Source: Flavobacterium piscinae
GTDB lineage: Bacteria; Bacteroidota; Bacteroidia; Flavobacteriales; Flavobacteriaceae
Direction of reading: 5' to 3'
DNA length: 64,000 nt
NCBI RefSeq assembly: GCF_004122145.1
Contig: NZ_SBKQ01000008.1
Span: forward strand, 120,361 to 184,360
Under the pieces are notes generated by a model. It saw only the letters and a list, made by a program, of their open reading frames with translations. It was not told where the DNA came from and searched no databases. A program made the translations under genes and the position numbers. Within the stretch, counting starts at the first letter, position 1, and the number at the start of each line of letters is the position of its first letter. This document shows, in pieces, positions 44,970-61,659 of the stretch.

Positions 44970-45013
44970 ATGACAAATATCATATTTTAATTTTTCACCT
45001 TTTGCAACCTTTG
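44970..45013 (+). promoter_or_regulatory. FNR-like operator and -7 element of ccoI
   Basis: The dyad ATGACAAATATCAT (44970-44983) has FNR-type half-sites (TGAY-N4-RTCA). Its centre is exactly 33 bp upstream of the centre of AACCTTTG (45006-45013), a near-match to TAnnTTTG. This is close to the classic class II activator position. Confidence 0.7.
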
Positions 45014-45035
45014 TTACAGGTAAAATGAGCAAAAG

Positions 45036-47456
45036 ATGGACACAGAAAATTGTTTCCATTGTGGTAATGAAATTAATAAAAAAGACGAAATTATTTTTGA
45101 CGAAAAAAGTTTTTGTTGCAATGGTTGCAAAACCGTTTACGAAATTTTCAGTCAAAATGATTTATCGTGTTATTATGATTTTCAGGCAGCTCCGGGTGCC
45201 ACACCACAAGATATACAAGGTAAATATGATTTTTTAGACAATGAAGACATTGTTATTAAACTTCTCGAATTCCAAGAGGATACAACTCATATTGTTTCAC
45301 TCTACATTCCGCATATACACTGTAGTTCGTGTATTTGGATTTTGGAAAATCTACAGAAACTTCAGCAGGGAATAATTACTTCTCAAGTAAATTTTCCTGA
45401 GAAAAAAGTCCGTGTCACTTTTCATCCTGAACAAACTTCTTTGAAGAAAATTGTCGAATTATTGAGTTCAATCGGTTATGAACCGTATATCAGTTTAGAG
45501 AATTTTGATAATGGAAAAAAAGACATCGACCGCAGTTTAATTTATAAAATCGGTGTAGCCTTTTTTTGTTTCGGGAACATCATGTTGCTTTCTTTTCCGG
45601 AATATTTTGAAGTAGAGGAATATTGGATTAACGAATACCGAGGATTTTTCCGTTGGTTGATTTTCGGAATTTCATTGCCATCTTTCTTTTATTCCGCCAG
45701 TGGCTATTATGTTTCAGCTTACAAAAGTATAAAATCAGGATTCTTGAACATTGATATCCCAATCGCATTGGGAATTGTAGTGATGTTTGTCAGAAGTACA
45801 ATTGATATCGTCTTCGATTATGGTCAAGGTTTTTTTGACAGTATGACCGGACTCATCTTTTTTATGTTGTTGGGAAAATTATTTCAACAAAAAACCTACG
45901 CATTTCTCTCTTTTGAACGCGATTATAAATCCTATTTCCCAATTGCGATTACTAAAGTTTTAGCCGATGGTTCAGAAACGTCTGTTCAAGTATATGACAT
46001 TCAAAAAGGAGATCGACTTTTAATCCGAAATCAGGAATTAATTCCGGTGGATGGAATTTTAATTTCCGAAAAAGCATCCATTGACTACAGTTTTGTGACC
46101 GGAGAAGCGGTTGCCATCGAAAAAAAATCGGGTGATAAAATCTATGCCGGGGGAAAACAAGTGGGGAAAATTATCGAAATGGAAGTGCTTTTTTCTGTTT
46201 CACAAAGTTATCTTACCCAATTGTGGAGCAACGACGTTTTTCAGAAAAAAGTGGAAGTAAAACACAAAACGGTAACTGATAAAATCAGTCGTTATTTCAC
46301 ACCGGCTTTACTTAGTTTGGCAATTGTTTCATTTTTGTTTTGGATTTTAATCGATACCAATACAGCCTTTAATGTGTTTACGGCGATATTGATTGTAGCT
46401 TGTCCTTGTGCTTTGGCATTAACCGCTCCTTTTACGTTGGGCAATGTGCTTCGAATTTTAGGTAAACGAAAATTCTATCTCAAAAACGCCACCGTAATTG
46501 AACAATTGGCTCAAGTAGATACCTTGGTTTTTGACAAAACAGGAACGATTACCACCAATAAAAAAACGGCTATTACATACGAAGGCATTCCTTTGAGCGA
46601 ACAAGAATTGAAATTGCTGAACAACGCACTCAGAGGTTCCAATCATCCATTGAGCAGAAGGTTATATGATTTTATTCCTGCCCAAGCGAAAGTAAATCCC
46701 ACCCATTTTGAAGAAATAATAGGGAAAGGAATTTTTGCCGAAATAGAAGGCAATACCATCAAATTAGGCTCATCACAGTTTTTAAAAACGATGACGGAGA
46801 ATACACATAAAAAAACCAAAGTACATGTGGAAATTAATGGGGTTTACAAAGGAAGTTATGTGTTTAATAATCAATACAGAGAAGGGTTAGAGCAATTGTT
46901 TTTTCAATTAGCTAAAAAATACAATTTAGTTATCTTATCCGGTGACAATGATGGCGAACGTAAGATTTTAGAAAAAATGTTACCTGAAACGACCACTTTA
47001 GTATTCAATCAAAAACCGGAAGAAAAATTGCAATACATCGAGAACCTTCAAAAACAAGGTAAAAATGTCATGATGATTGGCGATGGATTAAACGATTCCG
47101 GTGCCTTGGCTCAAAGTAATATTGGTATTTCAATTTCAGAAAATGTGAATGTTTTTTCACCGGCGTGCGACGGCATTTTAGATGCTTCTCAATTTTCTGC
47201 AATCGGTTTTTTTATGCAGTATTCCAAAAACGCCATGAAAACAATTTACATGAGTTTTGGTCTTTCTTTAACTTATAATTTGGTAGGATTGAGTTTTGCT
47301 GTAACCGGAAATTTATCTCCTCTTGTAGCCGCGATTATCATGCCATTAAGTACAATTACAATTGTGAGTTTTGTAACGATTATGACCAATCTTTACGCAC
47401 GAAACCCGCTACTCAAAACTAAAATTAATAAGCATGACAAATATCATGTTTTATAA
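45036..47456 (+). CDS. ccoI: Copper-translocating P-type ATPase for cbb3 oxidase (CcoI/FixI)
   Basis: An 806-residue P1B ATPase. An N-terminal zinc-ribbon-like segment (CFHCGNEINKKDEI, CCNGCKTVYEIF) is followed by an HMA-like domain with HIHCSSCIWILENL. Eight membrane segments follow, with the CPC metal site VACPCALAL, the actuator segment FVTGEAVAIEK, the phosphorylation site FDKTGTITT, and GDGLNDSGALA. It exports copper for CcoN assembly. Its last codons contain a second FNR-like dyad that serves the downstream oxidase genes. Confidence 0.95.
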   Translation: MDTENCFHCGNEINKKDEIIFDEKSFCCNGCKTVYEIFSQNDLSCYYDFQAAPGATPQDIQGKYDFLDNEDIVIKLLEFQEDTTHIVSLYIPHIHCSSCIWILENLQKLQQGIITSQVNFPEKKVRVTFHPEQTSLKKIVELLSSIGYEPYISLENFDNGKKDIDRSLIYKIGVAFFCFGNIMLLSFPEYFEVEEYWINEYRGFFRWLIFGISLPSFFYSASGYYVSAYKSIKSGFLNIDIPIALGIVVMFVRSTIDIVFDYGQGFFDSMTGLIFFMLLGKLFQQKTYAFLSFERDYKSYFPIAITKVLADGSETSVQVYDIQKGDRLLIRNQELIPVDGILISEKASIDYSFVTGEAVAIEKKSGDKIYAGGKQVGKIIEMEVLFSVSQSYLTQLWSNDVFQKKVEVKHKTVTDKISRYFTPALLSLAIVSFLFWILIDTNTAFNVFTAILIVACPCALALTAPFTLGNVLRILGKRKFYLKNATVIEQLAQVDTLVFDKTGTITTNKKTAITYEGIPLSEQELKLLNNALRGSNHPLSRRLYDFIPAQAKVNPTHFEEIIGKGIFAEIEGNTIKLGSSQFLKTMTENTHKKTKVHVEINGVYKGSYVFNNQYREGLEQLFFQLAKKYNLVILSGDNDGERKILEKMLPETTTLVFNQKPEEKLQYIENLQKQGKNVMMIGDGLNDSGALAQSNIGISISENVNVFSPACDGILDASQFSAIGFFMQYSKNAMKTIYMSFGLSLTYNLVGLSFAVTGNLSPLVAAIIMPLSTITIVSFVTIMTNLYARNPLLKTKINKHDKYHVL

Positions 47457-47477
47457 AAAGCAGTCAAATTAACTTTG
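47434..47477 (+). promoter_or_regulatory. FNR-like operator and -7 element of ccoS-NOQP
   Basis: ATGACAAATATCAT (47434-47447), identical to the site before ccoI, lies inside the end of ccoI. The -7 element TAACTTTG (47470-47477) is centred exactly 33 bp downstream, giving the oxidase genes their own FNR-type promoter. Confidence 0.72.
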
Positions 47478-47495
47478 TTAACATAAATTTAAGGT

Positions 47496-47690
47496 ATGAG
47501 CGTCATTTACATTTTAATCACTATCAGCATCATTGTGGCCGTATTTTTTCTTTATGCTTTTATTAAAGCAGTTAGAAGCGGTCAGTATGATGATGATTAT
47601 ACTCCTTCCGTCAGAATGCTTTTTGACGATGAACTCAAAATAAAAACCAACAAAAAACCAATACAAACAATTAAAGAAAAACAAGTATAA
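47496..47690 (+). CDS. ccoS: cbb3 oxidase assembly protein CcoS
   Basis: A 64-residue protein with one transmembrane helix (MSVIYILITISIIVAVFFLY), then the CcoS motif FIKAVRSGQYDDDYTPSVRM. CcoS is needed to insert haem and copper into CcoN. It sits 2 bp upstream of ccoNO. Confidence 0.93.
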   Translation: MSVIYILITISIIVAVFFLYAFIKAVRSGQYDDDYTPSVRMLFDDELKIKTNKKPIQTIKEKQV

Positions 47691-47692
47691 TT

Positions 47693-49882
47693 ATGGAGAT
47701 GCAACAATTTTATTACGACAACAAAATTGTAAAGAAGTTCCTCTACGCCTGTATCGTCTTTGGAGTAGTCGGAATGTTAGTAGGCCTCATTTTGGCCATC
47801 CTGTTTTTATTTCCCAATTTAACCGATGGAATTTCGTTCCTAAGTTTTGGTAGATTAAGACCTTTACATACCAATGCAGTAATCTTTGCTTTTGTGGGTA
47901 ACGCCATTTTTGCCGGTGTCTATTATTCCATGCAACGATTATTGAAAACCAGAATGTACAGTGATTTGTTAAGCAATATCAACTTCTGGGGATGGCAATT
48001 AATTATTGTTGCCGCTGCCATCACTTTACCTTTAGGGTATTCAACTTCAAAAGAATATGCCGAATTAGAATGGCCAATCGACATTGCCATTGCTCTAATT
48101 TGGGTAGTGTTTGGTATCAACATGATTATGACTATCATCAAACGGAGAGAACGTCATATTTATGTAGCGATTTGGTTTTATATTGCCACGTTCGTTACCG
48201 TTGCGGTGCTTCATATTTTTAACAGTTTGGAACTTCCTGTATCAGCTTTAAAAAGTTATTCGGTGTATGCCGGTGTGCAAGATGCTCTGGTACAATGGTG
48301 GTATGGACATAATGCGGTGGCATTCTTCTTAACGACTCCGTTTTTAGGTTTGATGTATTATTTTGTACCTAAAGTGGCCAATCGTCCTGTGTATTCATAC
48401 CGATTGTCAATCATCCACTTTTGGTCGTTGATTTTCATCTACATTTGGGCTGGACCTCACCATTTATTATATTCCGCCTTACCGGATTGGGCTCAAAATT
48501 TAGGAGTTGTTTTCTCAGTGATGTTGATTGCTCCATCTTGGGGGGGGATGATTAACGGATTACTGACATTAAGAGGAGTTTGGGACAAAGTGAGAACCGA
48601 TGCCGTTTTGAAATTCTTTGTAGTGGGTATTACCGGATATGGTATGGCCACATTTGAAGGACCAATGCTTTCGCTTAAAAACGTAAACGCAATTGCTCAC
48701 TTTACCGATTGGATTATTGCTCACGTGCACGTGGGTGCCTTAGCTTGGAACGGATTCATGACCTTTGGTATGATTTATTGGTTGATTCCTCGTATGACCA
48801 AAACCAAATTGTATTCTGAAAAATTAGCCAATTTCCATTTTTGGATTGGAACATTAGGAATTGTTTTATATGCTTTACCATTATATGTTGCCGGATTTAC
48901 ACAAGCTTCTATGTGGAAACAATTCAACCCTGATGGAACATTGGTGTATGGAAACTTCTTAGAAACGGTTACCCAAATCATGCCAATGTATTGGATGCGT
49001 GCCATCGGTGGAACACTTTATGTGACCGGTTTAATCGTGTTAGTATACAATGTTGTAAAAACAGTTGCCGCCGGTTCCAAAGTAGAAGACGAATTAGCGG
49101 AAGCCCCTGCTTTAGCTGTCATTTCTTCCAGAAGAATGAAAGGTGAAAAATGGCATTCTTGGTTAGAAAGAAGACCTATTCAATTTACAGTATTGTCATT
49201 AGTGGCTATTTTAATTGGTGGTATCATACAAATTATACCAACAATTGTAGTAAAATCGAATATACCAACAATTGCTTCCGTTAAACCATATACTCCGTTA
49301 GAATTAGAAGGCCGCGATTTATACATCCGCGAAGGTTGTGTAGGTTGTCACTCACAAATGATTCGTCCGTTCCGTTCTGAAGTGGAACGCTATGGTGAAT
49401 ATTCAAAAGCGGGTGAATATGTGTATGATCATCCATTCTTATGGGGTTCCAAACGTACCGGTCCTGATTTAAAACGTTTAGGTGGAAAATACAATGATAA
49501 TTGGCATTTTAATCACATGTGGGATCCGCAAAGTACCTCTCCGGGTTCGATTATGCCGGGCTACAAATGGTTATATGATAATAAACCAATGGATTATTCT
49601 CAAATTGAGAAAAAAATGGAAGTGATGGTGACATTGGGTGTTCCCTACACTCCTGAAGAAATTGCTAATGCCAGAAAATCAATTGATGAACAAGCTGCTC
49701 AAATTGAGAAAAATTTACATGCTGATCCTGATTTTGTAAAATCGTATGAAGAAAGTAAAAAGAATGCAGCTACACGTGGTGAAGAGTTCGTTGCTATGAA
49801 AGACAGAGAAATTACTGCTCTTATTGCTTACTTACAACGACTTGGTACAGATATTAAAGTTAAAGAAACTGCTCAAAAATAA
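47693..49882 (+). CDS. ccoN: Fused cbb3 cytochrome c oxidase subunits I and II (CcoN-CcoO)
   Basis: A 729-residue protein. Residues ~1-480 are CcoN with twelve or so membrane helices and the haem/copper histidines, e.g. RLRPLHTNAVIFAFVGNA, QWWYGHNAVAFFLT, WAGPHHLLYS and TDWIIAHVHVGALAW. After a linker and an anchor helix (~residues 500-520), a CcoO domain carries one haem c site REGCVGCHSQMIRPF. The fusion is usual in Bacteroidetes. It reduces O2 with high affinity in the inner membrane. Confidence 0.95.
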   Translation: MEMQQFYYDNKIVKKFLYACIVFGVVGMLVGLILAILFLFPNLTDGISFLSFGRLRPLHTNAVIFAFVGNAIFAGVYYSMQRLLKTRMYSDLLSNINFWGWQLIIVAAAITLPLGYSTSKEYAELEWPIDIAIALIWVVFGINMIMTIIKRRERHIYVAIWFYIATFVTVAVLHIFNSLELPVSALKSYSVYAGVQDALVQWWYGHNAVAFFLTTPFLGLMYYFVPKVANRPVYSYRLSIIHFWSLIFIYIWAGPHHLLYSALPDWAQNLGVVFSVMLIAPSWGGMINGLLTLRGVWDKVRTDAVLKFFVVGITGYGMATFEGPMLSLKNVNAIAHFTDWIIAHVHVGALAWNGFMTFGMIYWLIPRMTKTKLYSEKLANFHFWIGTLGIVLYALPLYVAGFTQASMWKQFNPDGTLVYGNFLETVTQIMPMYWMRAIGGTLYVTGLIVLVYNVVKTVAAGSKVEDELAEAPALAVISSRRMKGEKWHSWLERRPIQFTVLSLVAILIGGIIQIIPTIVVKSNIPTIASVKPYTPLELEGRDLYIREGCVGCHSQMIRPFRSEVERYGEYSKAGEYVYDHPFLWGSKRTGPDLKRLGGKYNDNWHFNHMWDPQSTSPGSIMPGYKWLYDNKPMDYSQIEKKMEVMVTLGVPYTPEEIANARKSIDEQAAQIEKNLHADPDFVKSYEESKKNAATRGEEFVAMKDREITALIAYLQRLGTDIKVKETAQK

Positions 49883-49887
49883 TTGTT

Positions 49888-50061
49888 ATGCTCAAGTTTA
49901 TTAAAGGTCATATGGACAGTATCTCCGGGATAGAGATTTATCCGATTATTTCGCTCAGCATTTTCTTCATCTTCTTTGCTTTACTTTTATTTTGGGTATT
50001 CACTTATAGCAAAGAAAAAATTAATGAATTAAGTGATATCCCTTTAAAAGAAGATAATTAG
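49888..50061 (+). CDS. ccoQ: CcoQ-like small subunit
   Basis: A 57-residue protein, MLKFIKGHMDSISGIEIYPI followed by one transmembrane helix (SLSIFFIFFALLLFWVFTYS) and a charged tail. Its position between ccoNO (5-bp gap) and ccoP (22-bp gap) and its single helix identify it as a CcoQ/FixQ subunit. CcoQ stabilises the oxidase in other bacteria. Confidence 0.85.
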   Translation: MLKFIKGHMDSISGIEIYPIISLSIFFIFFALLLFWVFTYSKEKINELSDIPLKEDN

Positions 50062-50083
50062 TTAACCTTATTAGTTGTAAAAT

Positions 50084-51040
50084 ATGAAAAAATTAATTCC
50101 ATCATACGTTCGTGTTCCGTTGATTTTTGCCCTTGTAATGGGTGCAATGGAATATTTTATTGACTCCGGCGATAAGCCTGCATTTATAGAATACCCTATG
50201 GTAGCTTTGTTTTTAGGGGTTTTCTTATTCCTGTTAGTTGCTATAGAAATTGTGGTAAGTGCCGTTGATAAAGTTACTTATCATTTACTTTCTGAGGAAC
50301 AGAAAAAACAATTGGAAGAAGCACAATCATTACCATTTACAGAAAGTGCTTTTTATCAAGGAATCATGAAAAAATTAACCCGTTCTAAAGAAATTGAAGA
50401 AGAACATGATGTAATGTTAGATCATGATTATGATGGCATCAAAGAATTGGACAATGTGCTACCTCCTTGGTGGGTGAATTTATTCTACTTAACCATCATT
50501 TTTGCTTTTGTCTATTTGGTAAGGTTCCATATTTTCAACGACTATGACCAAGCTTCTGAATTTGAAACAGAAATGGCCATTGCTAAAGCAGAAGTTGAAA
50601 AATACAAACTAACGGCACCTGATTTAATGGATAAAGAAAAAGTAACACTTTTAACGGATGCTACTGCTTTGGCTGAAGGAAAATCAATTTTTGAAGCAAA
50701 ATGTGTGGCTTGTCACAAAGCGGATGGCGGTGGTTCTATCGGACCAAACCTCACCGATAACCACTGGATTTTGGGCGGTGGAATCAAAAATGTGTTCAAT
50801 ACCATTATGGAAGGTGGTCGTGAGGGAAAAGGGATGGTGCCTTGGAAAACAGAAATCAAACCCTCTGATATTCAAAAAGTGGCCAGTTATGTGTTGTCTT
50901 TACAAGGAACTAATCCAAAAGAGGGTAAAGCTCCTGAGGGCGATGTTTGGGTAGATGAAAATGCTACAAAAACAGAAACAATCAAAGATACTACTGTTAC
51001 CGATACCACAAAGACAGAAATTGTAGCGGTAGTAAAATAA
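50084..51040 (+). CDS. ccoP: cbb3 oxidase subunit III (CcoP), mono-haem
   Basis: A 318-residue protein. The FixP N-terminal domain has DHDYDGIKELDNVLPPWWVN (residues ~117-136), with membrane helices on both sides. One cytochrome c domain has EAKCVACHKADGGGSIGPNL and the Met ligand in GKGMVPWKTE. Canonical proteobacterial CcoP has two haem sites; only one CxxCH is present here, as in many Bacteroidetes. The C-terminal tail is rich in T, D and K. Confidence 0.93.
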   Translation: MKKLIPSYVRVPLIFALVMGAMEYFIDSGDKPAFIEYPMVALFLGVFLFLLVAIEIVVSAVDKVTYHLLSEEQKKQLEEAQSLPFTESAFYQGIMKKLTRSKEIEEEHDVMLDHDYDGIKELDNVLPPWWVNLFYLTIIFAFVYLVRFHIFNDYDQASEFETEMAIAKAEVEKYKLTAPDLMDKEKVTLLTDATALAEGKSIFEAKCVACHKADGGGSIGPNLTDNHWILGGGIKNVFNTIMEGGREGKGMVPWKTEIKPSDIQKVASYVLSLQGTNPKEGKAPEGDVWVDENATKTETIKDTTVTDTTKTEIVAVVK

Positions 51041-51046
51041 AAAAAA

Positions 51047-51072
51047 CAAATCCCGGTGTAAATCGGGATTTG
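51047..51072 (+). terminator. Hairpin between ccoP and ccoG
   Basis: Perfect 9-bp stem CAAATCCCG / CGGGATTTG with an 8-nt loop. Only a weak T tract follows, so it may be a partial terminator or mRNA processing/stabiliser site inside the cco cluster. Confidence 0.6.
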
Positions 51073-51093
51073 TAAAATCTAAATTTTTAAGGT

Positions 51094-52512
51094 ATGAGCA
51101 AGTTACCCGACGAAAGTTTTAGAGATACCATTGGTACCATTAATAAAGAAGGCAAAAGAGCATTTATTTTTCCTAAAAAACCGAAAGGACCTTTTTACGA
51201 TAAACGAAAACTCTTGAGTTATTTTTTGTTGGTGTTCTTATTGGCAGCTCCTTTTGTCAAAATTAACGGACATCAGTTTTTGATGTTCAATGTATTAGAA
51301 AGAAGATTTAATATTTTCAGTTTTCCTTTTTGGCCTCAGGATTTTCACTTATTTGTGATTTCCATGATTATTGGTGTGGTAGGGTTGGCATTGTTTACAG
51401 TAGTTTTTGGTAGAATTTTTTGTGGATGGTTTTGTCCGCAGACCATTTTTATGGAAATGGTCTTTCGCCGAATCGAATATTGGATTGATGGCGATAGAGG
51501 AGCACAAATTCGTTTGCAAAAACAAGAATGGAATGCAGAAAAAATCAGAAAAAGAGTGACCAAATGGATTATCTTTTTTGTGATTTCGTTCTTAATAGCC
51601 AATGTTTTTTTAGCCTATTTGGTCAGTAGTGATCGGTTGTTGTTAATGATAAAAGAAGGTCCTGCCTTACACACCAGCACTTTAATAGCCTTATTGATTT
51701 TTACAGCCGTATTTTATTTTGTATTTGCTTGGTTCAGAGAACAAGTGTGTATTATTGCTTGTCCATATGGCAGAATGCAAGGCGTTTTGTTAGACAATAA
51801 ATCCATTAATGTGGCCTACGATCACGTTCGTGGTGAAAAAGAATTGGGCAGAGCAAAATTCAATAAACAAGAAGACAGAGCTGCCACCGGAAAAGGCGAT
51901 TGTATCGATTGTAAGCAATGTGTACATGTTTGTCCCACCGGAATAGATATTCGCAATGGAACACAACTAGAATGTATTAATTGCACCGCTTGTATTGACG
52001 AATGCGATACCATCATGGAAAGCGTAGGATTATCTAAAGGATTAATTCGTTACGCCAGTGAAGATGAGATTGTTAAAAAAGAAAAATTTGTCTTTACTAC
52101 TAGAATGAAAGGTTATACCGCTGTGTTAACCATTTTAATTGGCGTCTTAATCGGTATGTTGTTTTTAAGAAATGATGTCGAAGCAACAGTACTGCGACTT
52201 CCGGGTCAATTGTTTGAACACAAAGGTGAAAATATCAGCAATGTGTACACCTATAAAATTGTCAATAAAACCACAAAGCAATTTGAAGCAGTGACATTTA
52301 AATTGGTGGAACCAAAAGGTGAAATTATTCTGGTTGGTAAACCAAAAATCAAGGTAAAACCGGATGGAATTGCCAAAGGAACCTTATTTATCGAAATCAA
52401 TCCGGCCTACATTGAAGGCGATAAAATAAAATTAAAAATTGAAGTGTATGATGGTGAAAATCTTATAGAAACAGCTACTACTAACTTCATGGGGCCTAGA
52501 AGCTTTAATTAA
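51094..52512 (+). CDS. ccoG: cbb3 oxidase accessory protein CcoG
   Basis: A 472-residue membrane-bound ferredoxin-like protein. Helices lie at ~45-60, ~90-110, ~160 and ~200. Conserved Cys motifs are FCGWFCPQTIFMEM and IIACPYGRMQG. A 2[4Fe-4S] domain follows (CIDCKQCVHVCPTGID and CINCTACIDECD), then a C-terminal Ig-like domain. CcoG reduces copper during cbb3 assembly in Rhodobacter. The order of genes I-S-NO-Q-P-G-H is complete here. Confidence 0.95.
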   Translation: MSKLPDESFRDTIGTINKEGKRAFIFPKKPKGPFYDKRKLLSYFLLVFLLAAPFVKINGHQFLMFNVLERRFNIFSFPFWPQDFHLFVISMIIGVVGLALFTVVFGRIFCGWFCPQTIFMEMVFRRIEYWIDGDRGAQIRLQKQEWNAEKIRKRVTKWIIFFVISFLIANVFLAYLVSSDRLLLMIKEGPALHTSTLIALLIFTAVFYFVFAWFREQVCIIACPYGRMQGVLLDNKSINVAYDHVRGEKELGRAKFNKQEDRAATGKGDCIDCKQCVHVCPTGIDIRNGTQLECINCTACIDECDTIMESVGLSKGLIRYASEDEIVKKEKFVFTTRMKGYTAVLTILIGVLIGMLFLRNDVEATVLRLPGQLFEHKGENISNVYTYKIVNKTTKQFEAVTFKLVEPKGEIILVGKPKIKVKPDGIAKGTLFIEINPAYIEGDKIKLKIEVYDGENLIETATTNFMGPRSFN

Positions 52513-52534
52513 TCTTCTTGCTTTAGCTAACTTT

Positions 52535-52554
52535 CATCGGACTTCAGTCCGATG
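52535..52554. repeat. REP-like perfect palindrome
   Basis: A 20-bp perfect palindrome with CATCGGACT stems, flanked by further complementary TTAGC/GCTAA bases, lies between ccoG and the FixH gene. GGACTTCAGTCC-type hairpins are common dispersed elements in Flavobacteria; comparison with the genome would confirm it. Confidence 0.5.
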
Positions 52555-52572
52555 CTAAAAAAAATAAATATT

Positions 52573-53019: not shown

Positions 53020-53022
53020 AAA

Positions 53023-53111
53023 GGTAATGGGTTATAGGTAATGGGTAATTGGTCAAAATCATCACCCATCATCCATCATCCATCATCCATCATCCATCAC
53101 CTATCACCACC
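53023..53111. repeat. Inverted pair of 7-bp-period arrays
   Basis: The left arm (53023-53050) has GGTAATG GGTTATA GGTAATG GGTAATT. The right arm (53060-53111) reads on the opposite strand as seven GRTGATR heptamers (GGTGATA GGTGATG GATGATG ...). The array begins 3 bp after the stop of the FixH gene and runs up to the ATG of the next gene. It contains no ORF. Confidence 0.8.
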
Positions 53112-53813
53112 ATGCTATACACCGCACTCCTTTTCGGATTAATCAGCAGCTTTCATTGCATCGGCATGTGTGGCCCGATTGCCATGATGATTCCTGTTAA
53201 CCGAAATAATGCGGCAAAAAGGATTTTTCAAATTTTCCTTTATCATCTTGGTAGATTGACAGCATATGGGATGTTGGGTTTGTTTTTCGGAATTTTAGGA
53301 AAAGGACTTTTTTTGGCCGGCTTACAGCAACAATTATCTGTTTTAGTTGGCATTTTGATGATACTTTTTGTCATTATTCCTGAAAAGAAAATGGCTCAAT
53401 ACAATTTTTCAAAACCCATTTATAAAGTTATTTCAAAAGTAAAAAGTCATTTGGGAGCACAATTCAAAAGGAAAACGTTTGATGCTTTATTCACGATGGG
53501 TTTATTAAACGGCTTCTTACCTTGCGGAATGGTCTATGCAGCACTTTTCGGAGCTATTGCCATGCAAAGTGAATGGTTAGGAGCAACCTATATGTTATTA
53601 TTCGGAATAGGAACTATCCCCATGATGAGTGCCGTGGTGTTGATCGCGAATTTTATAACTGTACCGGTTCGCAATAAAATTCAAAAAATGATTCCCATCA
53701 TGGTATTCATCATCGGGAGTTTATTCATAGTGAGAGGGATGGGATTGGATATCCCTTATCTTTCTCCAAAAACTACCTCATTAATTGTTCAAGCCAATCC
53801 GGATTGTCATTAA
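53112..53813 (+). CDS. SafE/TauE-like urease-accessory-type membrane protein
   Basis: A 233-residue protein started at the ATG at 53112; the longer frame runs through the repeat array. Six or so helices include TALLFGLISSFHCIGMCGPI with the H-C-x3-M-C-G-P motif and a second NGFLPCGMVYAALFG, features of the sulfite exporter/UreH-like (DsbD_2-type) family. In Bacteroidetes this gene ends the cco cluster, so a role in copper or thiol handling for cbb3 assembly is inferred. Confidence 0.85.
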   Translation: MLYTALLFGLISSFHCIGMCGPIAMMIPVNRNNAAKRIFQIFLYHLGRLTAYGMLGLFFGILGKGLFLAGLQQQLSVLVGILMILFVIIPEKKMAQYNFSKPIYKVISKVKSHLGAQFKRKTFDALFTMGLLNGFLPCGMVYAALFGAIAMQSEWLGATYMLLFGIGTIPMMSAVVLIANFITVPVRNKIQKMIPIMVFIIGSLFIVRGMGLDIPYLSPKTTSLIVQANPDCH

Positions 53814-53947
53814 GATTTTTTAGTTTTTCAGTTTTGGAAACGAGCAACCCTTAAAAGTTGTTCGTTTTCTTTTATAACCTGATGAAAGTCATGTTTTAAC
53901 TGCGTATTTAATCCGAAATTTATGGTATAATTTCTAAATGTACAGTT

Positions 53948-56077
53948 ATGTTACAATTCGATAGTAAACACGTAAAAAATGTGGTGCTACTGGGTCATAC
54001 CGGTAGCGGTAAAACGACATTGGCTGAAGCCATGTTATTTGAATCAGGAATCATTAACAGAAGAGGAACAGTTGAGGAAAAAAATACAATTGCCGATTAT
54101 ACCGACATTGAACATGAAAAAGGAAAAACACTTTTCTCTAAATTGGTCAATTCAAAATGGAAAGGCTATAAAATTAACATATTAGACACGCCCGGTTATG
54201 ATGATTTGTCCGGTGAGATCATCAGTGCGATGCGGGTTTCCGAATGTGGTGTAATGCTTCTGAACGCTAGAATGGGAGTAGAAGTAGGCACCGATATTAT
54301 TTGGCAATATACCGATGAATTCAAACTTCCTGTCATTTTTGCGGTAAATCAACTCGATCATGAACAAGCTGATTTTGATAAAACAGTAGCTGAAGCTAAA
54401 GCTCATTTTGGTAATCAATTGGTAATAGTTCAGTATCCGGTTAATCAAGGTCCAAATTTTAATGCGGTGATTGATGTATTGAACATGGTCATGTATCAAT
54501 ATCCTTCTGATGGTGGAAAACCGGAAAAACTCCCTATTCCGGATGCAGAGAAAGAAAAAGCAAAACAATTGCACCAAGAATTGATTGAAACGATTGCCGC
54601 CAACGACGAACGTTTGATGGAAAACTATTTTGAGAAAGGCGAATTAAACGAAGACGAAATGAAATTGGGCTTGCATCATTCCTTACTCAAACATGAAATT
54701 TTCCCTGTTTTTTGTGTTTCGGCTAAATTAAATATGGGTGGAGGACGATTGATGGGATTTATTGATAATGTGTGTCCGTCTGCCTATGAAATGCCACCTC
54801 AATTAACTATTGACAACCGTGAGATTCCATGTGATGACAAAGCAAAAACAGCCATTTTTATTTATAAAACGGTTTCTGAACCGCATGTAGGAGAGTTGAG
54901 TTTCTTTAAAGTACTTTCCGGAACAATTAAAGTGGGTGATGAATTGACTAATGAAGAAACCGGACAAGTGGAAAAAATCATGCAATTGTTTGAAATGGAA
55001 GGCAATAAACGAATCGCTGTAGATGAGTTGACTGCCGGCGATATTGGAGCAACCTTAAAATTAAAAAATACGCATACCAACAACACGTTGCATGAAAAAG
55101 GTTTTCCCATATCTATTCAACCGATTCAATTTCCTTCGCCAACTTTTTCAATGGCTGTAGAAGGAACCAAAAAAGGGGAAGAAGAAAAACTTTCAGCAGC
55201 ATTGCATCAATTGGTGGAAGAAGACCCAAGTATCATTGTTGAGGTATCAGCCGAATTAAAACAAACTATTATTCATTGCCAAGGAGAATTACACATGGCT
55301 GTTATCAAATGGAAATTAGAAAATACGCATAAATTAGCTGTTGATTTTAAAAAACCTAAAGTGGCCTATCGTGAAACCATTCAAGCCGAAGCGGAAACCA
55401 CGTATCGCCATAAAAAACAATCGGGTGGAGCAGGGCAATTTGGTGAAATTTCTATGAAAATATTCCCAATTACAGCAGATACCGCAGACCCTAAAGGCTA
55501 TCCTATACGAGGTAAAGAAGAAATAGATTTACCTTGGGGCGGAAAATTAATTTATTACAATTGCATTGTGGGTGGAGCAATTGATGCCCGTTTTCATCCC
55601 TCCATTTTAAAAGGAGTGATGGAAAAAATGCAAGAAGGACCATTAACTGGTTCCCATGTGCAAGATGTAGGTGTTTTGGTGTATGATGGCAAAATGCACG
55701 CGGTTGACAGCAATGATTTGTCTTTCAAAATAGCCGGAATGATGGCGTTTAAAGAAAACTTTGTCAATGCTAATCCACAATTGTTAGAACCAATTCACGA
55801 GGTAATTATTGTAACTCCCGATGAAATCACAGGTGGAATCATGAGTGCGATTCAATCCCATCGCTCGATGGTGGAAGGCATGGATGCAGAAGGACATTTT
55901 ACTAAAATTAAAGCTTTAATTCCTATTGCCGAGATGCATGAATTCATGGGAACTGTTCGATCTTTATCACAAGGAAGAGCTAAATTAAACATGGAATTTT
56001 CTCATTACGAAAAAGTGCCGTATGAGATTCAACAAGAAGTAATTCAATCGTTTAAAGAAGATTTAGTAGAAGTGTAA
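53948..56077 (+). CDS. EF-G-like translational GTPase (EF-G paralogue)
   Basis: A 709-residue protein with EF-G domain order. G1 is GHTGSGKTTLAEAM. The switch I region has EHEKGKTLFS instead of the usual R-G-I-T-I. G3 is DTPGYDDLSG, so the catalytic His of D-T-P-G-H is Tyr. G4 is FAVNQLDHEQ. Domains II-V follow, with RHKKQSGGAGQFGEISMK and GVMEKMQEGPLTGSHVQDVG. These changes mark the EF-G-like group, which has ribosome-related but poorly defined roles. It is a second EF-G, not the str-operon FusA. A possible FNR-type half-dyad lies at 53880. Confidence 0.88.
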   Translation: MLQFDSKHVKNVVLLGHTGSGKTTLAEAMLFESGIINRRGTVEEKNTIADYTDIEHEKGKTLFSKLVNSKWKGYKINILDTPGYDDLSGEIISAMRVSECGVMLLNARMGVEVGTDIIWQYTDEFKLPVIFAVNQLDHEQADFDKTVAEAKAHFGNQLVIVQYPVNQGPNFNAVIDVLNMVMYQYPSDGGKPEKLPIPDAEKEKAKQLHQELIETIAANDERLMENYFEKGELNEDEMKLGLHHSLLKHEIFPVFCVSAKLNMGGGRLMGFIDNVCPSAYEMPPQLTIDNREIPCDDKAKTAIFIYKTVSEPHVGELSFFKVLSGTIKVGDELTNEETGQVEKIMQLFEMEGNKRIAVDELTAGDIGATLKLKNTHTNNTLHEKGFPISIQPIQFPSPTFSMAVEGTKKGEEEKLSAALHQLVEEDPSIIVEVSAELKQTIIHCQGELHMAVIKWKLENTHKLAVDFKKPKVAYRETIQAEAETTYRHKKQSGGAGQFGEISMKIFPITADTADPKGYPIRGKEEIDLPWGGKLIYYNCIVGGAIDARFHPSILKGVMEKMQEGPLTGSHVQDVGVLVYDGKMHAVDSNDLSFKIAGMMAFKENFVNANPQLLEPIHEVIIVTPDEITGGIMSAIQSHRSMVEGMDAEGHFTKIKALIPIAEMHEFMGTVRSLSQGRAKLNMEFSHYEKVPYEIQQEVIQSFKEDLVEV

Positions 56078-56100
56078 AATCTTCATGCATATTTAATTTT

Positions 56101-56125
56101 AAAGCCCGATATTTGTCGGGCTTTT
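56101..56125 (+). terminator. Terminator after the EF-G-like gene
   Basis: Perfect 9-bp stem AAAGCCCGA / TCGGGCTTT with a 6-nt loop, flanked by A and T runs, 23 bp after the stop. Confidence 0.85.
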
Positions 56126-56175
56126 ATTTTAAAAATAATTTCTCATAAAGAGTATAAATTAATTTTAGTCGGATT

Positions 56176-57798
56176 TTGTACAGTGCTATGAAGTATAGAA
56201 ATGTTTTCAGGTTAGTCTTATTTTTCTTTTTTTTAACTACAAGTTTTGTTGCTCAAAACAAATCGAATGAACTAAAAGCAATTTGGGAAAACACTAAAAA
56301 TGCGGATTCGATTCGATTTAATGCTTTAGCTGACTATTATAAATTAAATAATCAAGCCCAACCCGACTCTACCTTACTAGTATTAGAATATTACTACCAA
56401 CTAGCCAAAGAAAAAAACAATTCAAAGGAACTTTATAATGTTGCAAACGACCGAGGTGGTATATATAGACTAAAAGAAGAATTGGACCTATCAATGCATT
56501 ACTATGAAGAAGCTAAAAAATTGGCTATAAAATTAAACGACCCAATTTTAAAAGCTATAAATTTAGGTAATATAGGAAATGTTTATGCTAACAAAAAAAT
56601 GTATAAGGAAGCATTACAAAATTTCACTAATTCATTAACGATTTATAAGGAAATCAAAGACAAAATTGGAGAATCCCGAATGTTAAGCAGCATTGGTAAT
56701 GTTTACTTATACATACAAAATTATGATTTAGCTTTAGCATATTATCAAAAAGCACTCACGGCAAGTAAAAATAGTGACGTTCCTCCAAGAAGTATTGCGG
56801 TTATTTATATAAACATTGGCTGGACCAACTATGAACTTAAAAAGTACACGGAAGCTATACCACATTACGAAAAAGCTCTAAAAATATTGGAGGTGACTAA
56901 TGATAAGTTTTTTTTAGTTTCTTGCTATTCCACTTTAGCTAAAATTTACATCGAGTTAAATGACTTGCAAAAAGCTATTTATTTCGCAAATAAAAATAGT
57001 ATTATTAGTAAGGAATTGAAAATCGAGGGTTATATCGATGATAGTGAAATCGTATTTGCAAAAATAGATTTCAAAAAAGGAAATATCGAAGAAGCTAGAA
57101 AAAAAGGGGAAACGATATTGGCAAATTTAGATAAAAATTCCAGTCATGAATTAAAATTAAAACTTTATGATTTATTATACAAGGTTTATCAGGCTGAAAA
57201 CAATTCAAAAAAATCTTTAGAGATGTATCAGAAATACAGTACATATAAAGATAGTATTCAATTGGAAAGAAATAAACTTTCACTCATAAGAGAAGTCGTT
57301 AAAAATGAATTTGATGATCTACTTGTTAAAAATGAGCTAAAACTACAAAAAGAGAAAGCGGAACTAGTTTCTAAACAACAACAAAAAACCATTGGTATTG
57401 TTCTTGGTTCATTTATTTTAATAATTCTTATAATATTTTATTTCAATAGAAATAATAAAAAAAGTAGAGAAAAGAGAGATGAATTACTTGAAGAAATAAA
57501 TAATCTTAAAAGTAACGTTACTTCAAGTCTTGTTGTAAACACAAATGAATATCAATTAGTACGAGAAAAGATAGAAAATTTCATCCAACGAAAATTAAAC
57601 GAAACCGACTGGAATGTACTCAACATCTTATTAAAAGAACCGGATATTTCGAACAAAGAATTAGCAGAAAAAGCTTTTATGAGTGTGGATGGAATTGGTT
57701 CTTCATTAAGAAGAATGTATCTTTATTTTGATATTAAAGAATCCAAATACAAAAAAATAGCTCTTATTACAGTCGCAATTAAAGCGTCTAACGAATAA
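56176..57798 (+). CDS. TPR signalling protein with C-terminal HTH
   Basis: A 540-residue protein. The N-terminus is a signal-anchor (RLVLFFFFLTTSFVAQ). Tetratricopeptide repeats span residues ~70-330 (e.g. AINLGNIGNVYANKKMYKEA, IYINIGWTNYELKKYTEAIP). A transmembrane helix (TIGIVLGSFILIILIIFYF) lies near residue 410, a coiled coil follows, and a LuxR-like HTH lies at the C-terminus (NVLNILLKEPDISNKELAEK, SVDGIGSSLRRMYLYF). This is the common bacteroidete membrane-tethered TPR-HTH type. It precedes a T9SS propeller gene, which may be a target. Confidence 0.85.
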   Translation: MYSAMKYRNVFRLVLFFFFLTTSFVAQNKSNELKAIWENTKNADSIRFNALADYYKLNNQAQPDSTLLVLEYYYQLAKEKNNSKELYNVANDRGGIYRLKEELDLSMHYYEEAKKLAIKLNDPILKAINLGNIGNVYANKKMYKEALQNFTNSLTIYKEIKDKIGESRMLSSIGNVYLYIQNYDLALAYYQKALTASKNSDVPPRSIAVIYINIGWTNYELKKYTEAIPHYEKALKILEVTNDKFFLVSCYSTLAKIYIELNDLQKAIYFANKNSIISKELKIEGYIDDSEIVFAKIDFKKGNIEEARKKGETILANLDKNSSHELKLKLYDLLYKVYQAENNSKKSLEMYQKYSTYKDSIQLERNKLSLIREVVKNEFDDLLVKNELKLQKEKAELVSKQQQKTIGIVLGSFILIILIIFYFNRNNKKSREKRDELLEEINNLKSNVTSSLVVNTNEYQLVREKIENFIQRKLNETDWNVLNILLKEPDISNKELAEKAFMSVDGIGSSLRRMYLYFDIKESKYKKIALITVAIKASNE

Positions 57799-57912
57799 CT
57801 TTTTACTTTTTATTTTCTTAAAAAAAGTATTTTCACAACTACACGTGAAAGATTATATGAAAGGATAGTTGAATTTTGATAAAAAATTACTCAACCACCT
57901 AAATTTTAGACT

Positions 57913-59355
57913 ATGAAAAAAATTACACTTTTATTTTTATTAACTTCATTTGTTTCTTTCGCACAATGGAACCAAATAGGATTGGACATAGATGGAGAAA
58001 ATGCCGGAGATGAATCTGGAACATTTATAAGTATTAATGGTGATGGTACAATAATAGCAATTGGAGAACCTCGTAATGATGCATTAGCAAATAATGCAGG
58101 ACAAGTTAGAGTATTTGAACGAAATGGTACTACTTGGAGCCAATTAGGTACAGACATTAATGCCTCCGGAAATGGAGATAACTTTGGTCAATCTATTGAT
58201 ATTAATAATAATGGGGATATCTTAATAGTAGGAGCTCCGGGTATTTTAGCAGGTCCCACAGCTCCTGGATATGCACGTGTTTTTCAATGGAATGGTAGCA
58301 ATTGGATACAACGTGGAACAGATATTATTGGAGAAGCACCAGATGATTCTTGTGGCGGTTCAGTTGCAATCAATAATGATGGTTCTATAATAGCTGTTGG
58401 AGCAAGTTCTAATTCAGGCAATCAAGAGTTTGCAGGACACGTTCGTCTATTTCAATGGAATGGTACTAACTACACACAACTAGGTAATGATATAGAAGGA
58501 GAGGCTGCTCAAGATTTTTCAGGTAACTCTATAGATTTAAGTGCTTCTGGACATACAATTGCAATTGGTGCTGCAGGCAATGATGGAGGAGGAACCACAT
58601 CAGGACACATACGTGTATATGAATGGAATGGAACATCATGGGTACAAAAAGGTATGGATATAGATGGAGATGGTTTAAATGGTAATTTTGGTAGTTCAGT
58701 TTCGATTGATGCATTTGGAAACACTGTTACATCCGGAGCTTTTTCTTTTTCAAATGGTGCAATAGGCTCTACTCTAGTTTTCTCTTGGAATGGTTCTAGT
58801 TGGACGCAAAAAGGTTCAGCATTGACGGGTGATGTTGGTAGTGATTTTTTTGGAACTTCTACCAGTTTAAGTAATGATGGTAACATCATCGCAGTTGGTG
58901 CATTGGGTTATGCCAGAATATTTAAATTTAATGGTTCAGATTGGTTACAAGAAGGGGCAGACTTGTTAGAAGAAAATTCATTAGATCAATTTGGCAGATC
59001 AATTTCTTTAAACAATAATGGAAATATAGTAGCAATTGGTACTCCATATAATGATGGAAACGGCTCAAATGCTGGTCATGTAAGAATTTTTGAAAATATT
59101 ACACTTTCAACTTCTGATTTTGATACCAATACAATTTCTTTTTATCCCAACCCAACAAAAGATTTTGTTTATTTTAATTTAAATGAAACAATCGAAAGTC
59201 TATCACTTTATAATTTACTAGGCCAAGCAGTACTATCAAAACAAATTAATGCTGAAAATTTTTCTTTGGATATTAGTAGTTTCTCTGCTGGATCGTATAT
59301 TGCTAAATTGAATACTAAAGGAAAATCTAAATCAGTCAAAATAATTAAATTATAA
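57913..59355 (+). CDS. T9SS type A secreted seven-bladed propeller protein
   Basis: A 480-residue protein with signal peptide MKKITLLFLLTSFVSFAQ. Seven units of about 50-57 residues follow, each of the form W-x-Q-x-G-x-[DA]-[IL] ... G-x-S-[IV]-x-[IL]-[NS]-x-[DN]-G-x-[IT]-[IV]-[AV]-[IV]-G-A ... G-x-[VA]-R-[VI]-[FY]-x-[WF]-N-G. The number fits a seven-bladed FG-GAP/integrin-type propeller. The last ~80 residues (ISFYPNPTKDFVYFNL ... SVKIIKL) form a type A sorting domain. The ligand is unknown. Confidence 0.85.
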   Translation: MKKITLLFLLTSFVSFAQWNQIGLDIDGENAGDESGTFISINGDGTIIAIGEPRNDALANNAGQVRVFERNGTTWSQLGTDINASGNGDNFGQSIDINNNGDILIVGAPGILAGPTAPGYARVFQWNGSNWIQRGTDIIGEAPDDSCGGSVAINNDGSIIAVGASSNSGNQEFAGHVRLFQWNGTNYTQLGNDIEGEAAQDFSGNSIDLSASGHTIAIGAAGNDGGGTTSGHIRVYEWNGTSWVQKGMDIDGDGLNGNFGSSVSIDAFGNTVTSGAFSFSNGAIGSTLVFSWNGSSWTQKGSALTGDVGSDFFGTSTSLSNDGNIIAVGALGYARIFKFNGSDWLQEGADLLEENSLDQFGRSISLNNNGNIVAIGTPYNDGNGSNAGHVRIFENITLSTSDFDTNTISFYPNPTKDFVYFNLNETIESLSLYNLLGQAVLSKQINAENFSLDISSFSAGSYIAKLNTKGKSKSVKIIKL

Positions 59356-59461
59356 GTTAAGAATTTTCATATTTTGAAAAAGTAATTTATCAAATAGAAC
59401 AAGAAGAGATTCAATAGTTTACAGAGAATTAGTAGATGTGTAATTGAAAAGTTTTTAAAAT

Positions 59462-59488
59462 AAAGCCCGATGAAAGTCGGGCTTTTTT
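59462..59488 (+). terminator. Terminator between convergent genes
   Basis: Perfect 9-bp stem AAAGCCCGA / TCGGGCTTT, 6-nt loop, then six T. It shares its stem sequence with the terminator at 56101. Confidence 0.85.
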
Positions 59489-60098
59489 AGTAATATTTCC
59501 TTAATTCTATTAACTTTTGTTGGTTAGGAAAAGTAGAAATGGCTTGTTCAAGTGCAATTTTACCTTGCTCACATTCGAGGTTTTCATACCTACACAAATA
59601 AGCATATCCTAAACAAATTCGGTATTCCACATCAAACTGATTAGGAATTAATTTGGCAGCACTTTTATACCTAAAAATTGCATTTTCAAAGTTTCCGGTT
59701 TCCATCCATTCATCTCCGTCTTTGATTAATAATTGAAAGTCTTTATGAGTTTTTGAAAGTTTAAACGATTCAATTTGAGCTGTTTTTTGATTCTCATCTG
59801 CTTTTTTAACATTTGAAAAATAATATATGGTTACTGCAATTGTAAATGCTATAATCAAAAGAATAAATAGTATGTTCACTATAAAAGATTTCTTTTTTTC
59901 TTTTAATAGCTTGTTTCGGATTTCTTCTAAAAGTTCAGGTGAAGCTGTTTTATGGTCAATAAATTCAGTATGTTCATTCTCGTATGGTGAACTTAAATAA
60001 TCTTTCTTAGAAGAAAACATAGATTTCCTTTTACCAATCAGTGCTCTATTATTTTTCATAATAGTATTCATTGATTGTGCACTTCCAAATCCACCCAT
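59487..60098 (-). CDS. Membrane protein with C-terminal TPR-like helices
   Basis: A 203-residue protein. The N-terminal cytoplasmic part has GGFGSAQSMNTIMKNNRALI, similar to the start of many short bacteroidete membrane proteins. One membrane helix (FIVNILFILLIIAFTIAVTI) lies near residue 95. A helical region resembling TPRs follows (GDEWMETGNFENAIFRYKSA, YAYLCRYENLECEQGKIALE). No function recognised. It lies 72 bp downstream of hemN on the same strand. Confidence 0.65.
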   Translation of the reverse strand: MGGFGSAQSMNTIMKNNRALIGKRKSMFSSKKDYLSSPYENEHTEFIDHKTASPELLEEIRNKLLKEKKKSFIVNILFILLIIAFTIAVTIYYFSNVKKADENQKTAQIESFKLSKTHKDFQLLIKDGDEWMETGNFENAIFRYKSAAKLIPNQFDVEYRICLGYAYLCRYENLECEQGKIALEQAISTFPNQQKLIELRKYY

Positions 60099-60170
60099 GA
60101 TAAAAAGAGTTTATATGAGTTTTACGGTAAAAAGATTGAAATAGTTACAAAACGATAGAAGTATATTAAA

Positions 60171-61529
60171 TCAAACCGTCATCGAAAACAATTTGGTTTC
60201 CGGCAGTTTTCGAGTCATGCGTAAATCAAAAGCCATGCAAATGTTGCGAATAAACGCTTTTCCTTTTTCAGTTACTGTAAGCGAATGATTAGTAATAATG
60301 ACCAATCCGTCTTCTTCCATTTCATGCAATCGCTCCACTACTTGATTGATTTCAGAAAAATAATAACCGTATTCATTCCAAGACGTTTGTAACTGACACA
60401 TGATATTCAAAATGTGTTTGCGAATGATTAAATCTTCGTCCGTTAAAAGATGGCCTCTAAAAACCGGCAATTCATTTTGTACCAACGCATCATAATAGTC
60501 TTCCAGTGTTTTTACATTTTGTGCAAAACTATACCAACTGTCACTTATCGAAGAAACACCCAAACCAATCATCACTTGGGTTTTTGATGAGGTGTAACCC
60601 ATAAAATTGCGATGTAGTCTTCGTTCGTTAAACGAATGATATAAACTATCGGTTTCTAAGGCAAAATGATCCATTCCAATTTCGTGATAACCGTTTTCCG
60701 AAAGTCGTTTTTTACCCATTTCATACAACAGACGTTTTTCTTCATCTTTGGGTAAATCTTCGTCTTTGAATCCGCGTTGTCCATTTCCTTTAATCCACGG
60801 AACGTGAGCATAACTGTAAAAAGCCAAGCGATCAGGTTGAAGCGAATTGGTTTTATCAATCGTATCGATCACATCTTCCAAGGTTTGAAAAGGCAATCCG
60901 AATATTAAATCATGACCAACAGAGGTATAGCCAATTTCTCTAGCCCAAAAAGTTACTTTGGCCACATTGTGAAACGACTGAATACGATGAATGGCTTCTT
61001 GTACTATTGGCGAATAATCCTGAACGCCAAAACTAACCCGTCGAAACCCTAAGTCATATAATTTTTGAAGGTGAGCTCTTGTTGTATTGTTGGGATGACC
61101 TTCAAAACTAAATTCATGATTGGGATGTTTATCGGCATTTTCAAACAATCCATTGATGAGGTGCTCTAAGTTTTCAGGAGAAAAGAAGGTTGGGGTACCA
61201 CCTCCTAAATGAATTTCTTTGATAATGGGTTTTTTAGGCAAGAGTTCGCAATACAATTCCCATTCTTTTAAGACTGCATCTATATAGGGGTGCTCCACAT
61301 CATGGCGTTTGGTGATGCGTTTGTTGCATCCGCAAAAGGTGCATAAACTTTCGCAAAACGGCAAATGAATATACAAACTGATTCCTTCTGAAGTATTCGA
61401 TTCAAGGAAAGAATGTACCAATGTTTCCTTCCATGTTGAAAGTGAAAAATCTTCTTCATTCCAATAAGGAACCGTGGGATAACTGGTGTATCTTGGACCG
61501 GGAACATTGTATTTTTGAATTAAAGTCAT
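60171..61529 (-). CDS. hemN: Oxygen-independent coproporphyrinogen III oxidase
   Basis: A 452-residue radical-SAM enzyme. It has YIHLPFCESLCTFCGCNKRI with the CxxxCxxC cluster site, EIHLGGGTPTFFSPENLEHL, SFEGHPNNTTRAHL, and RVSFGVQDYSPIVQEAIHRI, as in HemN. It makes protoporphyrinogen when oxygen is low. The upstream region holds an FNR-like dyad with the same 33-bp geometry as the cco promoters, which fits anaerobic/microaerobic induction. Confidence 0.95.
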   Translation of the reverse strand: MTLIQKYNVPGPRYTSYPTVPYWNEEDFSLSTWKETLVHSFLESNTSEGISLYIHLPFCESLCTFCGCNKRITKRHDVEHPYIDAVLKEWELYCELLPKKPIIKEIHLGGGTPTFFSPENLEHLINGLFENADKHPNHEFSFEGHPNNTTRAHLQKLYDLGFRRVSFGVQDYSPIVQEAIHRIQSFHNVAKVTFWAREIGYTSVGHDLIFGLPFQTLEDVIDTIDKTNSLQPDRLAFYSYAHVPWIKGNGQRGFKDEDLPKDEEKRLLYEMGKKRLSENGYHEIGMDHFALETDSLYHSFNERRLHRNFMGYTSSKTQVMIGLGVSSISDSWYSFAQNVKTLEDYYDALVQNELPVFRGHLLTDEDLIIRKHILNIMCQLQTSWNEYGYYFSEINQVVERLHEMEEDGLVIITNHSLTVTEKGKAFIRNICMAFDLRMTRKLPETKLFSMTV

Positions 61530-61615
61530 CCTTTATCGCTTTTAAACCGTAAAAAGTTAAGAATGAATGAGAACATTTTCTTCTTAACTTCTCACTGTCG
61601 AAGTAAAATATAGTT

Positions 61616-61659
61616 CAAAAATAAGCGGATGGAATGAAGAATAAAATGATAATTGTCAT
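61616..61659 (-). promoter_or_regulatory. FNR-like operator and -7 element of hemN
   Basis: On the minus strand, dyad ATGACAATTATCAT (61646-61659) differs from the cco sites at two central bases. Its centre is exactly 33 bp upstream of TATTTTTG (61616-61623), a full TAnnTTTG match. This is the third example of the same arrangement in the window. Confidence 0.72.

Follow-up and report, generated by a model that had tools for sequence, protein, structure and literature searches.

Predicted class II CRP/FNR-type operators at a fixed distance from the -7 box of cco and hemN promoters in Flavobacterium piscinae and its relatives

The DNA analysed here, called the window throughout, is a stretch of 64,000 nucleotides from Flavobacterium piscinae (contig NZ_SBKQ01000008.1, positions 120,361 to 184,360). 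It carries a gene for a CRP/FNR-family regulator, a cluster of cco genes and hemN, and our subject is a set of three palindromic sites (dyads) that lie before ccoI, ccoS-NOQP and hemN, together with the -7 promoter boxes that accompany them. The genes of the region are as follows.

44249-44929, minus strand: CRP/FNR-family regulator of 226 residues (PF00027 and PF13545), recognition helix GTATESCIR, predicted reader of the dyads
45036-47456, plus strand: ccoI, copper P-type ATPase (PF12156, PF00403, PF00122, PF00702)
47496-47690, plus strand: ccoS, 64 residues, named by position alone; first gene past operator 2, its open reading frame (ORF) beginning 18 nucleotides after the box
47693-49882, plus strand: ccoNO fusion (PF00115 and PF02433)
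50084-51040, plus strand: ccoP (PF14715)
51094-52512, plus strand: ccoG/fixG-like ferredoxin-type protein (PF13746, PF11614)
60171-61529, minus strand: hemN, oxygen-independent coproporphyrinogen III dehydrogenase (TIGR00538, 425 bits against a cut-off of 325)

The operators and boxes around these genes are listed below; distances are in base pairs (bp), and negative positions refer to predicted start sites.

44954-44961, minus strand: -7 box TATCTTTG of the regulator's own predicted promoter, with the dyad centre 19 bp upstream of the box centre
44970-44983, plus strand: operator 1, ATGACAAATATCAT, predicted to be common to ccoI (at -41.5) and the regulator gene (at -27.5)
44985-44988, plus strand: TTTT at -33 to -30 of the ccoI promoter
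45006-45013, plus strand: -7 box of ccoI, AACCTTTG, one mismatch (no T at -12); predicted start site 45018
47434-47447, plus strand: operator 2, ATGACAAATATCAT, within the 3' end of ccoI
47470-47477, plus strand: -7 box of ccoS-NOQP, TAACTTTG, a perfect TAnnTTTG; predicted start site 47482
61616-61623, minus strand: -7 box of hemN, TATTTTTG, a perfect TAnnTTTG; predicted start site 61611
61646-61659, minus strand: operator 3, ATGACAATTATCAT, before hemN

An earlier reading of the letters without database searches (the sequence-only reading) had placed three dyads at exactly 33 bp from their boxes, and both parts of that claim were confirmed in the window sequence. Each dyad has 14 bases of the form ATGAY-N4-RTCAT, and the distance from dyad centre to box centre is 33.0 bp at ccoI, ccoS-NOQP and hemN alike; the positions that had been given as box centres (45006, 47470 and 61616) are box edges. 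The description of the promoters as unlinked was generous, as operators 1 and 2 lie at either end of ccoI and operator 3 only about 14 kb off. A TAnnTTTG-like box had been assigned to all three promoters, which holds in full for ccoS and hemN, while at ccoI the leading T is mostly missing. The pattern ATGAYNNNNRTCAT matches four times in the window against 0.49 expected. The fourth match (53688-53701) lies inside the ORF at 53049-53813, does not belong to the sites that have a box 33 bp away and is probably due to chance.

The arrangement is conserved within the genus, for which the best 80 of 468 loci were drawn by regulator homology. The regulator gene beside and divergent from ccoI, already described for the window, recurred in 79 of these 80 loci. 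Promoters could be extracted from 78 loci and the window for ccoI, and from 72 loci and the window for ccoS. The dyad was kept in all 79 ccoI promoters, with NAnnTTTG 33 bp away in 70, 32 bp away in five and 34 bp away in one. Just two of the 70 boxes at 33 bp have a T at -12, which may mean that ccoI depends more strongly on its activator. At ccoS-NOQP, both the dyad and a perfect TAnnTTTG at exactly 33 bp were present in 73 of 73 promoters. The hemN promoters were sampled independently of the regulator, in 40 relatives, 27 of which had a hemN above the cut-off (22 from the same genus and five from other families of the order). All 22 genus members have the dyad and a perfect TAnnTTTG at exactly 33 bp; among the other five, the dyad was found in one and the box in none. 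Conservation at orthologous promoters, a test set beforehand, was thus observed at ccoI, ccoS-NOQP and hemN.

The classic position of class II CRP/FNR activator sites is centred at -41.5. In F. psychrophilum, the sigma-A box TAnnTTTG spans -12 to -5 (PMC9723704), so that the box centre is at -8.5 and, by analogy, a dyad centre 33 bp further upstream would stand at -41.5 in F. piscinae. The spacing would therefore correspond to the ordinary class II position and is not a new geometry. Beside the dyad, at -33 to -30, the TTTT is also conserved, each T being present in 93-94% of 70 ccoI promoters and in 96-99% of 73 ccoS promoters. We regard it as very probable that the three sites are class II operators, most likely read by the predicted regulator at 44249-44929.

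The proposed mechanism is as follows. The 44249-44929 protein, or less probably another regulator of the CRP/FNR type, would bind ATGAY-N4-RTCAT at -41.5 as a dimer and, once bound, would recruit sigma-A RNA polymerase to the TAnnTTTG box at low oxygen, touching the polymerase next to the -33 region where the TTTT is conserved. Low oxygen is suggested as the signal because of the gene content and because, according to PMC9723704, oxygen limitation in F. psychrophilum strongly raises the cbb3 oxidase and also raises haem biosynthesis. The main text of that paper does not contain the terms 'crp' and 'fnr'.

Scans of the host assembly (3.37 Mb in 61 contigs), with the reversed pattern as the control here and in the surveys below, showed the enrichment that had been anticipated. 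There were 33 dyads against 14 for the control, and when a NAnnTTTG box at 33 bp was required, 18 dyads remained against none. Fifteen of these 18 boxed sites precede an ORF start, as listed here.

Before ccoI
Before ccoS-NOQP
Before hemN
C1:64373, before the gene of a DNR-like CRP/FNR protein
Before a ScdA/RIC gene
Before a cytochrome c gene, followed by nosZ
Before an Rrf2 gene, followed by ORFs read as nadA, nadB, norC and norB (Pfam Rrf2, Cytochrome_CBB3, COX1)
Before a YceI gene
Before a cytochrome c gene adjoining hemB
Before pgk
Before a DUF2490 gene
Before an OmpW gene
Before the gene of a CBS protein
Before the gene of a protein with a type IX secretion system (T9SS) tail
C1:149538, before an ORF for a membrane protein of 44 residues

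Sites before cco, hemN and denitrification genes had been expected by the sequence-only reading and were found; it had also expected a site before nrd, and the host-genome scans list none before nrdD (L190:17306-19423).

The 44-residue ORF (L332:604-738, plus strand) starts 22 nucleotides past its 33-bp-spaced box, between DCC1-like and valS-like genes, and reads as a single-pass membrane protein with a WDNGxFIM motif. Similar ORFs of 42-43 residues start 24-25 nucleotides past such a box in two other genomes (G398 and G252), and seven database proteins, hypothetical or nameless, match at E of 0.01 or lower. It is a candidate for a small membrane protein made at low oxygen. A small RNA at C1:149538 was considered and rejected, as Rfam gave a single sub-threshold match on other bases and the ORF lies there instead.

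The list of targets bears on whether another protein might be the main reader of real dyads. If the DNR-like CRP/FNR protein encoded on contig C1, possibly responsive to nitric oxide, held that role, the regulon would answer nitrogen oxides rather than oxygen. This paralog (L148, helix VETVIR), encoded in the same genome, retains E and IR in its recognition helix, might bind at some of these sites and has an operator before its own gene; the targets also include nosZ, the nor-like cluster and RIC. However, the operator occurs at cco and hemN across the whole genus sample, with the 44249-44929 gene as a divergent neighbour; the predicted site before the DNR-like gene suggests that this gene lies downstream within the regulon; and the site counts given below follow the 44249-44929 ortholog and a fusion protein, the DNR-like paralog not being among the proteins tracked. 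We therefore consider this explanation unlikely.

The regulator at 44249-44929, which we prefer as the reader, belongs to the CRP/FNR superfamily by its domains (PF00027, 7e-22; PF13545, 1e-17) and by its fold match. Its closest named relative is an F. filum protein of 96% identity. All 80 genus orthologs share the GTATESCIR helix, and in 110 of 110 orthologs the residues G187, T188, A189, E191, S192, I194 and R195 are invariant. Its profile aligned with Aliivibrio fischeri FNR over positions 3-224 at 105-108 bits, starting at the first cluster cysteine and running through to the end, and its predicted structure (predicted local distance difference test 80) matched that protein (5e44) in Foldseek with an E of 1.8e-16. 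FNR holds its cluster with cysteines C20, C23, C29 and C122, and combines an E-x2-S-R recognition helix with the operator TTGAT-N4-ATCAA. In our regulator, Cys4, Cys7 and Cys106 align to three of the A. fischeri FNR cysteines and Ser13 stands at the fourth (third N-terminal) position; the helix is E-x2-I-R and the operator ATGAY-N4-RTCAT. Cys4, 7, 53 and 106 are present in 110 of 110 orthologs, and Cys29 and 59 in 109 of 110. The label 'FNR' is loose, as the third N-terminal cluster cysteine of FNR is missing.

In four aligned homologues from family f5 (L245, L246, L248 and L249), the GTATES-IR helix is kept and the N-terminal cysteines are gone; those genomes still show enriched sites, so that the sensor part appears changed and the reading head kept. 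Together with Ser13, this loss calls for caution over standard [4Fe-4S] oxygen sensing. A remark on induction by iron scarcity in F. psychrophilum, in PMC9723704, urges the same caution.

On the regulator side of the ccoI dyad, 76 of 79 promoters have a TAnnTTTG at a distance of 18-21 bp (70 of them at 19 or 20 bp), so that the dyad would fall at about -27.5/-28.5 in the predicted promoter of the regulator gene. This overlap suggests autorepression while ccoI is activated: the same bound dyad would lower the regulator's own gene and raise ccoI. It also invites the thought that dyad binding represses in general, the promoters being blocked in air and released at low oxygen. CRP/FNR proteins are able to repress, a dyad at about -27.5 in the promoter of the regulator gene has the look of a repressor site, and the iron-scarcity induction described in PMC9723704 would suit the loss of an iron-loaded repressor. 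Two features make general repression decidedly improbable. The exact spacing to -41.5 at many promoters is a mark of class II activation, and the presumed repressor site at the regulator's own promoter, with its spread of 18-21 bp, is far looser.

The sites are enriched across the family as well. In 149 genomes from 148 genera of the family, a composite pattern of the dyad with a box anywhere 12-42 bp after it gave 852 matches against 113 for the control. Among the matches listed (150, from 23 genomes), 108 were at 33 bp, 12 at 34 bp and six at 32 bp, the remaining 24 being spread over the other 28 offsets (about 0.86 per offset). In two genomes (G125, L270:4017; G034, L271:3677), two divergent -7 boxes share a single dyad at 33/34 bp, which separates a cluster read from its ORFs as cytochrome c-nosZ-like from a gene read as Rrf2-like.

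A sample of 296 genomes of the phylum set the bounds of this distribution, with site totals per family counted from the listing. Enrichment was seen in f5 of the same order (49 sites against 6 in six genomes), in f36 (20 against 2 in five genomes), in G451 of f60 (25 against 1) and in G470 of f64 (5 against 0). In contrast, f31, the most sampled family, gave 6 sites against 6 in 64 genomes. A promoter model for Bacteroidetes as a whole, as had been proposed, is therefore rejected; the enrichment belongs to the host's own family, f5 and a few other families. A further 25 genomes outside the family, mostly picked for having sites or for belonging to the same order, were tested for a regulator homologue. 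One was found at E<1e-40 in 16 (all those tested from f5, f36, f60 and f64, plus G392 and the order genomes G174 and G184), and none at that threshold in G179, G183, three f30 genomes and four f31 genomes.

Within the family, the number of sites follows two regulators. One is the ortholog of the 44249-44929 protein (E<1e-40), and the other is a fusion (full-length, E<1e-70) of a receiver, a CNB and a Crp HTH domain, about 350 residues long in the three scanned. The fusion is present in 65 of the 149 genomes and was not found in the window genome. Genomes with the FNR ortholog only (n=56) have 5.25 sites on average against 0.95 for the control, those with the fusion only (n=30) 5.37 against 0.47, those with both (n=35) 10.43 against 0.83 and those with neither (n=28) 1.14 against 0.61. 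Small genome size was rejected as the cause of the low counts without regulators, since 11 of the 28 genomes are of at least 2.5 Mb and still have a mean of 1.18 sites. In 32 genomes the best regulator match is only a paralog (E 1e-40 to 1e-20), and 30 of these carry the fusion. The 44249-44929 protein, named by the sequence-only reading, thus remains the most likely reader in the host, but it is not the only likely reader, as relatives have the fusion.

These counts also tell against the idea that shared promoter ancestry or AT-rich composition, with no regulator, gave rise to the fixed spacing: rows of one genus do share ancestry and the sequence round the sites is AT-rich, but the 7.5-fold lower family control, the peak in the spacing, the same offset at three unrelated promoters and the near-control counts of even the larger genomes with neither regulator make such an origin exceedingly improbable, in keeping with the earlier remark that the geometry is hard to explain by chance.

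The cco and hemN promoters of the fusion-only genomes mostly carry the operator as well. The dyad precedes hemN in 22 of the 23 such genomes in which hemN was found (of 30), with a perfect box at 33 bp in 17 of the 23 and TAnnTTTA at 33 bp in four more; in one genome the dyad and the hemN match downstream are 371 bp apart. ccoNO was found in 28 of the 30, with the dyad in 26 (a contig end is close by in one of the other two), and all 26 have a box at exactly 33 bp (TAnnTTTG in 12 and TAnnTTTA in 14). Among the 28 genomes with neither regulator, hemN was found in three and the dyad before none of them. C occupies the distal first position in 34 of 48 cco/hemN dyads from fusion-only genomes, compared to 3 of 152 cco dyads and 2 of 22 hemN dyads of the genus.

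The fusion helix reads GIA[TL]E[ST]LIR in 7 of 7 loci examined (L179-L188), where a PAS kinase gene adjoins the fusion, also in 7 of 7, as do universal-stress-like genes (one Pfam-confirmed). The three kinases scanned have HisKA and HATPase domains, and the PAS domain of one, searched against solved structures, aligned to FixL (1d06, E 9e-17). All seven kinases have a His and, 20 residues further on, an Arg at the FixL haem-pocket positions, residues which we take to be the haem histidine and pocket arginine of FixL. The kinase is therefore a predicted FixL-like haem sensor. Some dyads lie upstream of the kinase genes of the fusion loci, but on the kinase side a box at 33 bp is missing, which gives no ground for proposing feedback on this system.

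Since the dyad and the 33 bp are kept in fusion-only genomes, the promoter geometry would seem to outlive an exchange of sensor. We somewhat favour the view, drawn from sequence comparison, that a fixed module (ATGAY/CTGAY-N4-RTCAT at -41.5 of TAnnTTTG) has been kept while the oxygen sensor was exchanged, being, according to genus, a cysteine-rich FNR-type protein whose ligand set is non-canonical, a FixL-like haem kinase that would phosphorylate the fusion, or both, with the distal A changed to C where only the fusion is present.

Besides the DNR-like paralog and the absence of the canonical third N-terminal cysteine, several observations weigh against these interpretations. The cco loci were chosen via the regulator, and rows inside one genus or family are not independent. 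The order-level outgroups G174, G184 and G176 have a regulator homologue yet no dyad before hemN, so that the homologue alone is insufficient for a hemN dyad. Three of the 18 boxed host sites (C9:49306, C11:93791 and C59:178567) have no target gene seen in the stretch examined. Two incomplete genomes gave a match to neither regulator and yet have several sites, 9 in G048 (82%) and 7 in G147 (73%); G098, by contrast, carries the fusion but no sites; and the f30 genomes G254, G250 and G205 have 5, 4 and 2 sites with weaker homologues only (E about 1e-22 to 1e-26).

Collectively, the results support the sequence-only reading with the corrections given above. They describe a very well conserved regulon of the CRP/FNR type, probably class II, with a geometry of a familiar kind. 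It departs from known cases in its operator, its promoter type, its ligand set and, most of all, the alternative sensor; searches of open-licence papers, covered mostly as titles and opening lines of abstracts, did not bring up these variants. Nor did they show an operator or promoter model for oxygen control in Flavobacteriaceae; PMC8510549 gives a prediction that CRP/FNR homologs of one Flavobacteriales genome sense carbon. A position-exact rule makes it possible to predict on a genome scale which genes of cbb3 respiration, haem synthesis, denitrification and nitrous oxide reduction belong to the regulon. Furthermore, sensor replacement behind a frozen promoter geometry becomes directly testable, with the same promoters under two sensing chemistries.

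Compared to known systems, the predicted regulon shows several likenesses and differences. First, it shares with E. coli and A. fischeri FNR the CRP/FNR fold, three cysteine positions and, by prediction, the class II site at -41.5, whereas the regulator has Ser13, the extra conserved Cys29, Cys53 and Cys59, and Ile194 where FNR has Ser, and the promoters have ATGAY rather than TTGAT and a TAnnTTTG box. Second, it resembles DNR/NnrR in its denitrification targets and E-x3-R helix, but here cco and hemN are the core targets and the N-terminus of the regulator is cysteine-rich. Third, the closest solved structure to the regulator, by sequence and fold, is the P. gingivalis regulator 2GAU, which differs in its aligned helix (NMTVSNAIR) and in having no cysteine at the places of Cys29, 53, 59 and 106. 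Finally, the relatives without the FNR ortholog recall FixL-FixJ-FixK, with a FixL-like PAS kinase encoded beside a CRP/FNR-type regulator and the operator at cbb3 promoters; the difference is that the receiver and CRP/FNR parts are in one protein, so that FixJ and FixK would be fused.

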